Part shown: positions 21,536 through 27,275 of the stretch, one piece after another
Layout: the number at the start of each line of letters is the position of its first letter
Numbering within the stretch: position 1 is the first letter of the stretch
NCBI GenBank assembly: GCA_964036665.1
Contig: OZ038527.1
Location: 22,601,901 to 22,665,900 of the forward strand
Length of the DNA stretch: 64,000 nucleotides
Direction: 5' to 3'
From: Gordius sp. MW1
Taxonomy: Eukaryota; Nematomorpha; Gordioida; Gordea; Gordiidae
Translations under genes and position numbers: made by a program
The notes under the pieces: generated by a model
The model's input: the letters and a program-made list of their open reading frames with translations, nothing else
Told to the model about the DNA's origin: nothing
Database searches by the model: none

Positions 21536-21622
21536 TTATATTTTGCAATTACACGATTTAATACTTCAACTTTTATGATACGGTCCGAACAGCTGATAAT
21601 TCAAAAGTAACTATTAAAACCG
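21536..21622 (-). promoter_or_regulatory. ZNF207 leader/promoter, left copy of about 100-bp duplication
   Basis: The sequence immediately upstream of the ZNF207 start codon (plus strand TTATATTTTGCAATTACACG to ATTAAAACCG) is repeated at 27178-27275. It contains CAGCTG and TATGATACGG. The last 13 bases of the duplicated block (CCATGTGTGTGGA) are displaced to 23554-23566 by a later transposon. The core promoter of ZNF207 presumably lies here or in the transposon now abutting it. Confidence 0.6.
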
Positions 21623-22299
21623 AATCCGGGTCAAACGTTATAAAGTCAAACGTTTCATAGTACCGCATTTAGGTACATATTTAAAATATAAAAATAAAGA
21701 TAAAATAATAGACAATATTTTAGTATAAAAGGTATTATATAAAAAGGGTGCAAGGATATTATAATATAAATCTTTAGCATAAAAAATTAATTTAATTATA
21801 ATTGCCTAACTCTAATTGTATTAGTTTATTTAAATTAGTAAAGTTTATTATATAATAAAAAATTTAAATTGGCTTAGATATAATTTTTGATTGAATTGGA
21901 AATGTAGTTAAGGTTAAGAATTGTAAATATTTAGTCTGTTAAAGTTTTATTAAAAATAGGATCTTTTCTTATTACTGGGCATATAAATTTTATTTTGAGA
22001 TTTTATTGTTTATGTTTGTAAATAAACATTATCAAATGATCTTTTAGTTTTATTTCAAGGACTAATCATAATAAGCAAGCAACATTTATTTTACAGAAAA
22101 TTATTTTATTAATTTCTTTTTACAAATAGATCCTTGAAGATAGTGATATTTGATTTCCTTAAACCTAAACTAGAATTGGCAATATTTATTAATAAGATTG
22201 TGATTAATAATTAAGATGAAAAACACACCTTACTATAAAAATTTATAAAAAACTAGAAATAAATTTTATTTATATGGTTGTAATTGATTCATGAGAATG

Positions 22300-23090
22300 T
22301 AAATACATATAAACGGATACACTGTCAATAGAAATTATGATATAAGTTTTTAAATTAAATAACTCAAATGGGATATAGGTAGATTTGTTGCATCATAAGA
22401 TGATTGTATAGATCCACTGTCTATAGAAATTATGATATAAGTTTTTAAATTAAATAACTCAAATGGGATATACGTAGATTTGTTGCATCATTTAAGTAAG
22501 ATGATTGTATAGATCCACTGTCTATAGAAATGATGATATAAGTTTTTAAATTTAATTACTCAAATGGGATATAGGTAGATTTGTTCATCATTTAAGTAAG
22601 ATGATTGTATGGATCCACTGTCTATAGAAATGATGATATAAGTTTTTAAATTAAATTACTCAAATGGGATATAGGTAGATTTGTTGCATCATTTAAGTAA
22701 GATGATTGTATAGATCCACTGTCTATAGAAATGATGATATAAGTTTTTAAATTTAATTACTCAAATGGGATTTAGGTAGATTTGTTGCATCATTTAAGTA
22801 AGATGATTGTATGGATCCACTGTCTATAGAAATGATGATATCAGTTTTTAAATTAAATTACTCAAATGGGATATAGGTGGATTTGTTGCATCATTTAAGT
22901 AAGATGATTGTATAGATCCACTGTCTATAGAAATTTTGATATAAGTTTTTAAATTAAATAAGTCAAATGGGATATAGGTAGATTTGTTGCATCATTTAAG
23001 TAAGATGATTGTATAGATCCACTGTCTATAGAAATGATGATATAAATTTTTAAATTGAATTACTCAAATGGGATACAGGTAGATCTGAAG
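22300..23090. repeat. Tandem repeat, about 102-bp unit, about 8 copies
   Basis: Each unit contains GATCCACTGTCTATAGAA, TGATATAAGTTTTTAAATT and CTCAAATGGGATATAGGTAG. Units differ by a few bases and one is short. It fills the middle of the MULE-like element. Confidence 0.9.
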
Positions 23091-23104
23091 GTATCAATCC
23101 ATAA

Positions 23105-23341
23105 TTAGGGTACTCTATAATATAATAAGTAAATTAATATTAAAATACTTTTATGTGGGAGATTGTCATGTGCACGTGTCATTGTAAACCTTGCATCTGA
23201 ATAGAAGCCACCACAATCATTTACTCTACATCTGTAGTAAGATTTTGTAGCTGTGCCATTATTGACGTTTATATAATGATAATTTTGATAAACTAAAATT
23301 GGTTTTCTTTTTTGGGATAGAGTAAAATGAACGTGATTCAT
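23105..23341 (-). pseudogene. FLYWCH-type zinc-finger fragment of a MULE-like element
   Basis: The 78-codon minus-strand frame reads HFTLSQKRKPILVYQNYHY, SYYRCRVNDCGGFYSDARF and TMTRAHDNLPHK. This is the FLYWCH pattern: conserved F, L-V-Y, Y, W-or-Y, C, C and H-x-H. FLYWCH domains are common in MULE transposases. Nothing of the transposase core follows, so this is an orphan domain. It could also be a captured host exon. Confidence 0.65.
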
Positions 23342-23357
23342 ATTACAATAGGTGTTT

Positions 23358-25472: not shown

Positions 25473-26215
25473 TAGTGATGATCAAACCCTGGATCAGGTT
25501 TTCCCGAGGTCCAACCTGAGGTCGGTCTTAGGTTCAGGTTATCAAAAACCTGATAAGGTTTTTTGAACACCCGAACCTGAACCTGAGGTTCATCCCGAAA
25601 ATCAACCTGAAAAACCTTCAGGTCAATTTTACACCTGAAAACCCAGGTTGACCTCAGGTTAACCTGGAAAATTCTTGTTTTTTATATGATATATATAAGT
25701 ATAAATGTGGTATTTATTTTAAATATTTTCCTTTTTCAAGATGCATTAAACTTTTTAAATATTTACAATTTTAAATGAAAGAAAAATAGTATTTTGTTTT
25801 TATTAAAAAAAAATTAAGATTTTTTCAATATACAAATGATTTAAATATTTACCATGTCTATTTGGTGAATGCGGCATCTATATTTTAACAAATTTTCATA
25901 AAGCGTTGGAAAGCATTGCATGCATATACTATGCTGCATAGTATAGCATTTTAGTGTATGGTGTGCGATAAAATTATGGGGCTGGGTAGGGTATGTATAT
26001 ATCATATAAAAAACAAGAATTTTCCAGGTTAACCTGAGGTCAACCTGGGTTTTCAGGTTGGAGGGTGTAAAATTGACCTGAAGGTTTGTCAGGTTGATTT
26101 TCGGGATGAACCTCAGGTTAAGGTTCGGGTGTTCAAAAAGCCTTATCAGGTTTTTGAAAACCTGAACCTAAACCATCAGGTTGCCTGATCAAAACCTAGG
26201 TTTTGATCATCACTA
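25473..26215. mobile_element. Foldback hAT-like element, 743 bp, perfect 8-bp TSD
   Basis: TAGTGATGATCAAACCC at the left and CCTAGGTTTTGATCATCACTA at the right, minus its first base, form the termini. Inverted arms of about 200 bp rich in CAGGTT/AACCTG words enclose an AT-rich loop. GTAGGAAG flanks both sides (25465-25472 and 26216-26223), and the interrupted retroelement frame resumes after it. Same family as 7293-8683. Confidence 0.9.
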
Positions 26216-26367
26216 GTAGGAAGACGTTCTCCCCCGTCTAAACATTCGGTATCCTTTTTACTTAAACAAAGACTTGGTATTCTTATAGCCAAGTACAATT
26301 TTAAATCTTTCGCGGATTCTTGGCCAATTTTGGAAGATCCCCTCGATGATGATATATCAGAATAGCG

Positions 26368-27067
26368 CAGTGGTTCTTAACCTTTTTATACACGCGACCC
26401 CCAAATATTTTATAATTTGTTTGCGGCCCCCCATTTTTTTCATAATAATTTATATTTGTTATATTATCTATAATATATTGATTTTATATTATTTTTTCAT
26501 TTTATTATTAAAACACAACTTTATTGTTTTATTATCTATTTAAAATTTAAATAGATAATGAAATAATAATAACATAAGAACTTCATGATTAAACATAAAA
26601 ACAATGTTTAAAATAAAAATTTATGCATTCGGAAATATATTTAATGAGATTTCTGCTGCTGAACATCTTCAGCCAATTTGCTAATTATTGGTTCAATTGA
26701 TTGTAATGCTATCCTCATGCAGGAATCTAGTCGCAATCGATTGCGTTTTTTAGTTTTTATATCCACCATAGTTGAGAAGCCTTTTTCACACAAATATGTA
26801 CTAGCGAAAGGCAGCAAATTTTAAATTGCTGCTGAAAATAATGGAGGACATTCTGCACGAATTTGTATCCAAAATTGCGGCAAACTTTTAGTTTTAAACA
26901 AAAATTTTAAATTACAATCATTTGTTAATTCTAATAATGAATCTTAAGACAACGAGTTCGAATCCCCTGGTGAGTATTTTTTCTAAAGCTTTTCTGAATA
27001 TTTTTATTTTATTCTAAAAAAATTTGGCGACCCCCCGGCATCGCGACCCCCAGGTTAAGAATCACTG
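26368..27067 (-). mobile_element. hAT transposon remnant, 700 bp
   Basis: Termini CAGTGGTTCTTAACC and GGTTAAGAATCACTG, flanked by GAATAGCG (26360-26367) and GAATAGTG (27068-27075), an 8-bp duplication with one mismatch. CGACCCCC words lie inside both ends, as in many hAT families. The interior keeps only the 3' end of a transposase gene. A B-box-like GTTCGAATCCCC near 26953 hints at an old SINE insertion. Confidence 0.9.
26641..26880 (-). pseudogene. hAT transposase C-terminal dimerisation region
   Basis: The minus strand encodes FWIQIRAECPPLFSAAI, then after one in-frame [40 protein letters not shown] and a stop. The C-E-x-G-F-S-x-x-x-x-I-K-T-K-x-R-N-R-L pattern is the hAT C-terminal block of ZBED5/FAM200-like transposases. 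The N-terminal BED finger and RNase H-fold core are deleted. Confidence 0.85.
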
Positions 27068-27177
27068 GAATAGTGTATTATTTTATTTGACGCATTTTGT
27101 CTTTTATTTTTCATATATTTATATTATATTACTGTCAACGAATTTTTAACAAATAAATTTTTAATATAAAAAAAAAA

Positions 27178-27275
27178 TTATATTTTGCAATTACACGATT
27201 TAATACTTCACTTTTATGATACGGTCTGAACAGCTGATAATTCAGAGTAACTATTAAAACCGCCATGAGTGTGGA
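27178..27275. repeat. Right copy of the about 100-bp target duplication (ZNF207 leader)
   Basis: It runs from TTATATTTTGCAATTACACG to CCGCCATGAGTGTGGA and matches 21536-21622 plus 23554-23566 with a handful of differences. It directly follows the A-rich 3' end of the R2-like element. Beyond the duplication the sequence continues with an ATG-led 31-codon frame (27264 onward), possibly the first exon of a divergent gene that once shared the promoter, but I see no continuation. Confidence 0.75.

Follow-up and report, generated by a model that had tools for sequence, protein, structure and literature searches.

The 64,000 nucleotides analysed here (the window) come from Gordius sp. MW1 (GCA_964036665.1, contig OZ038527.1, positions 22,601,901 to 22,665,900, forward strand) and contain the start of a gene labelled ZNF207, next to which a direct repeat brackets a 5'-truncated retroelement. 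The name ZNF207 is that of the initial annotation; the MGRKKKK start is compatible with it. The most plausible reading of the repeat is a target-site duplication (TSD). The features of the locus, numbered from the first letter of the window, are the following:

21533–21535, minus strand: ATG of the gene labelled ZNF207 (CAT on the plus strand; sequence reading); the first exon begins here, the gene start is 21535, and the left repeat adjoins it.
21536–21622, plus strand: left copy of the TSD, first piece (BLASTN and global alignment).
21613–23553, plus strand: nested DNA element with terminal inverted repeats (TIR) that splits the left copy; 10-bp duplication ATTAAAACCG at 21613–21622 and 23544–23553.
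23554–23566, plus strand: left copy of the TSD, second piece; it meets the 5' end of the retroelement with about 1 bp of microhomology (BLASTN and alignment).
23566–25472, plus strand: body of the 5'-truncated retroelement, with the reverse transcriptase (RT) and C-terminal region; reference positions 1568–3507, 92% identity to the family copy at locus L050.
24940–25479, plus strand: open C-terminal stretch with a CCHC knuckle and PD...D motifs; the RHN motif is RYN in this copy.
25473–26215, plus strand: inverted-repeat DNA element nested in the retroelement; 8-bp duplication GTAGGAAG at 25465–25472 and 26216–26223.
26216–26367, plus strand: retroelement body resumes, up to the end of the open reading frame (ORF); reference 3500–3649 at 26216–26365, 96%.
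26368–27067, plus strand: second nested element, resembling a miniature inverted-repeat transposable element; CAGTGGTTCTTAACC termini, 8-bp duplication GAATAGCG/GAATAGTG.
27068–27177, plus strand: 3' end of the retroelement and A-rich tail; reference 3644–3754, 89%.
27178–27275, plus strand: right copy of the TSD, 98 bp, made of about 49 bp of the gene leader and then about 49 bp of the 5' part of element E.
27226–29199 (about), plus strand: element E, a dispersed TIR element interrupted by the retroelement some 49 bp from the left end of E; the inverted match to its terminus is at 29167–29199.

Aligned globally, the left copy (two pieces, 100 bp) and the right copy (98 bp) share 95 identities over 98 aligned positions, with three mismatches and two one-base gaps, which bears out the direct repeat of about 100 bp described in the initial annotation. 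When 27101–27400 was compared with the window by BLASTN, 27178–27262 matched 21536–21622 (95.4%, E = 1.7e-33) and 27250–27275 matched 23541–23566 (92.3%). As had been claimed, BLASTN and alignment placed the ends of the repeat at both ends of the 5'-truncated retroelement, with the A-rich tail touching the right copy. BLASTN against the window extended the repeat no further, and the four outer flanks look unrelated.

The repeat had been described as a copy of the ZNF207 leader, which is correct for its first 49 bp or so; the remainder belongs to element E. A genome search with the 98-bp right copy found 27 places, namely the right copy itself (query 1–98), the left copy (1–85, the match being broken after query position 85 by the nested TIR element) and 25 others. 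The latter match the second half only (from query position 49–52 on), because this half is the 5' part of the dispersed element E. The terminus of E, CATAGACTAATAATACCATAGACTGCCGGAACAGC, recurs inverted at 29167–29199; E is therefore taken as a TIR element, and its identification as another retroelement was rejected. The left terminus of the window copy of E is incomplete on its outer side, and this copy sits immediately upstream of the gene leader; other E copies are found elsewhere in the genome.

The retroelement belongs to a large and partly young family. In the 212-Mb genome its 1.9-kb RT part gave 1200 first-look candidates (the best 40 of 1200 were scored), the 3' tail of the window copy gave 368 (best 40 of 368 scored), and the tail of a young group, the copies of which are about 98–99% identical to L050, gave 545 (best 40 of 545 scored). 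Three extended copies have a common length of about 3.78 kb including the tail, and two of the family copies, L051 and L058, share 23 further bases at the 5' end, GGAATCAGCTGATACAATTCAAA. A single open frame of 972–973 codons, stop to stop, is intact in L050, L052 and L055 among the 15 long copies examined. In a separate observation, L051 and L063 (C8, about 23.10–23.11 Mb) are two near-full-length copies in head-to-head arrangement, with about 1.4 kb between their 5' ends.

R2-group elements have a C-terminal CCHC knuckle, an RHN-type motif and a PD...D nuclease motif behind the RT. In the L050 ORF (970 amino acids), an N-terminal CPSC..H..C is followed by the RVT_1 domain and then by CRNC...H..C, RHNK and RPDG...WD, a C-terminal motif order that appears R2-like. 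RVT_1 (8e-18) was the sole Pfam family found in this ORF, and there was no match to an apurinic/apyrimidinic endonuclease (APE) domain, which R2-group elements lack. Its relatives among solved structures were R2 (1.3e-8), a group II intron RT (1.3e-6), another R2 (1e-4) and L1 (8e-4). The R2-like endonuclease layout proposed initially was recovered at the level of motif order; in the alignment to the R2 protein 9nl2 the second stretch paired CRNC and RHNK in order, at a non-significant −0.6 bits.

An RT ORF, poly(A) or A-rich tails, 5' truncations and target-site alterations all characterize the family as a retrotransposon without long terminal repeats (non-LTR), that is, a long interspersed element (LINE). 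Insertion at the 28S ribosomal DNA (rDNA) site was not found: the copies have dissimilar flanks, made up of unique DNA, satellites and other repeats. These results support a non-site-specific non-LTR element outside rDNA, with R2-like C-terminal motifs and a predicted restriction-like endonuclease.

Target alterations were scored across family copies. The first sample comprised 60 loci (L009–L068), of which 44 copies with both ends were counted; the 16 left out were window copies, chimeric copies, copies that extended past the end of the locus, and L011, with 102 bases upstream only and a score of 14. The TSD test was a junction-anchored alignment reaching 150 bases upstream, with 120 mismatched flank pairs as the null (maximum score 16), and separate whole-flank comparisons reached about 0.2–2.4 kb upstream. 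Among the 44 copies there were six TSDs above 20 bp, four of about 7–14 bp, one blunt insertion and one deletion; six copies were ambiguous and 26 gave no signal. TSDs of 86 bp (L056, 85/86 identical), 44 bp (L025, 43/44, with 10 bases common to the element start), 43 bp (L034, 43/43), 40 bp (L037, 39/40) and 27–28 bp (L067) stood well clear of the null, the weakest of these five scoring 49. Shorter ones were found in L030 (13–14 bp) and L054 (about 9–11 bp), both scoring 23, and, marginally, in L045 (about 11 bp, score 17).

On extension, L046, one of the 44, proved to have a TSD of 1334 bp (99.78% identity); at the 5' junction, 53 additional bases separate this TSD from the truncated element. 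No source for this filler was found among the collected family loci, and one place on C5, 16 Mb away, then turned up that matches it with 91% identity over 54 bases, as is compatible with a template jump. For three copies, paralogous empty sites were available; they indicated a deletion of up to 19 bp in L050, a blunt insertion (0–1 bp) in L057, which has no tail, and a TSD of 7 bp plus eight extra bases in L058, where the alignment score was only 14 and the call rests on the empty site.

The ambiguous copies (L043, L051, L052, L060, L061 and L066) lie in repeats or satellites. L043, L051, L061 and L066 scored above the null, yet their alignments are gapped or diverged; L052 and L060 sit in satellite DNA that repeats every 345 bp or so, and no length can be read there. 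None of the six was counted as a TSD. L066, although a young element, is flanked by a 59-bp repeat (88%), one copy of which begins at the 3' junction while the other lies 151 bp upstream of the 5' end.

A second sample provided 20 new 3' flanks, 16 of which were searched genome-wide (the repetitive-looking L091, L094, L095 and L106 were left out). One insertion, L089/L107, has a perfect TSD of 118 bp (118/118) abutting both element ends, which was found through a second perfect copy upstream. The same search with 12 of 16 first-sample 3' flanks (L053, L063, L066 and L068 left out) gave no second copy close upstream among the matches listed. In both sets repeats dominate the matches listed, and TSDs shorter than about 80–120 bp may escape. 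The L050 3' flank, which is repetitive, has a 98% copy 1.9 kb downstream.

One may ask whether the window repeat is a pre-existing tandem or segmental duplication, the element having landed exactly between its copies. Tandem or satellite DNA does flank L043, L051, L052 and L060; however, the window repeat ends at both element ends, with the A-rich tail at one of them, and the same fit is seen in L025, L034, L037, L056, L067 and L089, and in L046 with its 53 filler bases. We rejected a pre-existing duplication at the window on account of this fit and consider it extremely unlikely.

The initial annotation had also proposed an R2-type element making long duplications outside rDNA. Further TSDs of 27–28, 40, 43, 44, 86, 118 and 1334 bp agree with this part of the claim; their length is not constant, however. 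Copies with short or no duplications, which had been named beforehand as speaking against the proposal, do exist when the flanks of other copies are measured. Because about 7–14 bp, blunt, deleted and signal-free copies occur, long TSDs are not a constant feature of the element: TSD length in the family is highly variable, from a deletion to a duplication of 1334 bp.

This spread bears on a comparison with R9 of the rotifer Adineta vaga, a member of the R2 superclade for which a 126-bp target duplication is stated (PMC6895275). The window family would share with R9 a restriction-like endonuclease, here judged by sequence motifs, and an exceptionally long target duplication; R9 is rDNA-specific, whereas the window family is dispersed. 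A fixed stagger of the R9 type, with a constant top-strand cut about 100 bp away, would suit the window (98–100 bp), L056 (86 bp) and L089 (118 bp), all near 100 bp. Yet the same family also made duplications of 1334, 44, 43, 40, 27–28 and about 7–14 bp, a blunt insertion and a deletion, and no single length of the R9 kind is apparent. A fixed stagger was rejected for this reason; it is very unlikely and could survive only for a subset of events.

Target-primed reverse transcription is in keeping with the tails, the truncations and the way the repeats fit the element ends. All together, the window repeat is very probably a TSD produced by a 5'-truncated, non-site-specific non-LTR element with R2-like motifs, inserted by target-primed reverse transcription with a loosely set second break. 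At the window, the truncated copy would have entered where the gene leader met an older DNA transposon. The first nick would have fixed the poly(A) junction at 27178, and a second-strand break about 98 bp away would have caused the intervening stretch to be copied on both sides. Across the family the second break would fall upstream of the first, giving a deletion, coincide with it, giving a blunt insertion, or lie 7 to 1334 bp downstream, and a template jump may have supplied the filler of L046.

ZfL2-2 and L1 are APE-type LINEs. In cell culture, these elements make TSDs of up to more than 1 kb, deletions and extra nucleotides at 5' junctions, according to the available parts of two reports (PMC2666801, PMC5223499), and the window family resembles them in its TSD of more than 1 kb, its deletion and its extra bases at the 5' junction; it differs from them in its predicted endonuclease type and in being a natural family. 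Long TSDs could thus be the tail of an ordinary LINE distribution, visible because the family is large and young. Indeed, ZfL2-2 in wild-type DT40 cells had one TSD above 20 bp in 25, which measured 1228 bp (PMC2666801), while up to 10% of L1 events in HeLa cells had TSDs above 100 bp (PMC5223499); L046 is the only copy above 100 bp among our 44. Speaking against this explanation, six of the 12 resolved copies exceed 20 bp, compared with one of 25 (p = 0.002), although this set is biased toward TSDs since resolution favours them; the 118-bp and window cases come in addition. We give this explanation a substantial, though less than even, chance. The breadth of the TSD spectrum is evident; a statistical excess over ordinary LINEs is not shown.

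Several points weigh against the main reading of a TSD made by an R2-like element with a loosely set second break. Over all copies, a TSD above 20 bp in six of 44 is not significantly more than the published one of 25 for ZfL2-2 (Fisher p = 0.41). In 26 of the 44, no duplication within 150 bases upstream rose above the null; 12 of these are young-group copies, so that age alone does not explain the lack of signal. Long TSDs are seen in a minority of copies, deletions or rearrangements may occur just as often, and TSDs are easier to detect than deletions. Moreover, the C-terminal domain alone gave no Pfam match and no meaningful PDB match, and its single-sequence structure model (predicted local distance difference test, 29.8) was unusable and set aside. 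The comparison with another LINE in the window also involves few copies:

44169–47251: LINE with an APE-type endonuclease; 15-bp TSD TAATGGCTAAAAATA, (AAG)n 3' end, open frame of 875 codons stop to stop.

This element, which we take to be RTE-like, matched Exo_endo_phos (4.9e-6) and RVT_1 (9.6e-34) in Pfam. It is a non-LTR element of the same genome that differs from the window family in its endonuclease and its 15-bp TSD. The 15-bp control is a single copy; a second, older copy of the APE-type LINE (about 33201–36447, minus strand) shows no TSD.

The control matters for a host origin of the long TSDs, in which a nearby second nick would often be missing in this genome and all LINEs would resort to one that is distant and unrelated. 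De novo L1 inserts with TSDs above 100 bp were four of seven in XPA-deficient, 21 of 23 in XPC-deficient and 22 of 28 in XPD-deficient human cells, a range of 57–91%, and TSDs of hundreds to thousands of bases in such repair-deficient cells were explained by a distant, unrelated nick (PMC5223499). The 15-bp TSD argues against a host cause here, yet one such copy and one without a TSD are too few to decide, and a host cause, while unlikely, keeps some probability.

For this family we tentatively prefer a use of independent nicks similar to the distant-nick account of L1 in repair-deficient cells. A more far-reaching reading, possible but less likely than not, is a non-site-specific R2-group element in which second-strand cleavage would be uncoupled from the first, and the 5' end would join any available independent nick or break on the same or the sister chromatid.

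The 3' junctions show a base bias. Immediately behind the poly(A) tail, the first base other than A is T in 14 of 16 and 17 of 20 copies; combined, this is 31 of 36 against 52% expected from the window composition (p = 1.5e-5). A fixed target motif after the tail was rejected, there being a T bias only, and a weak target preference is possible.

The window insertion was itself hit by DNA elements. The TIR element at 21613–23553, with inverted termini of 19 bases (18 matching), is younger than the left copy that it breaks, and it holds tandem repeats at 22316–23084 (period 101, 7.7 copies) and 23364–23509 (period 10, 14.6 copies). The two elements nested in the retroelement, at 25473–26215 and 26368–27067, are presumably both hAT-like. 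A look for telomere repeats found no exact 30-base run of TTAGG or TCAGG.

Long TSDs (R9), single long events (ZfL2-2, L1) and non-site-specific R2-like elements are already known. BLAG 1-6 of Blattella germanica are non-site-specific, with one ORF, a full length of 3.2–3.7 kb and 3–6 copies each (PMC7650587), and the R2NS families insert non-specifically (PMC5035012). By description, the window family resembles both in being non-site-specific and R2-like, and the BLAG families also in its single ORF and its length; unlike the BLAG families, it is abundant, with its 1200 first-look candidates. In the main text of the BLAG report, the word 'duplication' appears once, in a reference title (PMC7650587). 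Among the titles and abstract openings of the open-licence papers searched we found no report of an R2-like family with a comparable range of target alterations, which is not proof that none exists.

A young and abundant natural family with outcomes from deletion to duplications of more than 1 kb offers many real junctions on which models such as a fixed stagger, target melting, a distant host nick and a template jump can be tested, and the window provides a case of a retroelement duplicating a gene leader. If second-strand cleavage is indeed uncoupled from the first, insertions of this family would generate local deletions and duplications of up to more than 1 kb and would be able to duplicate promoters, as with the gene leader at the window locus.

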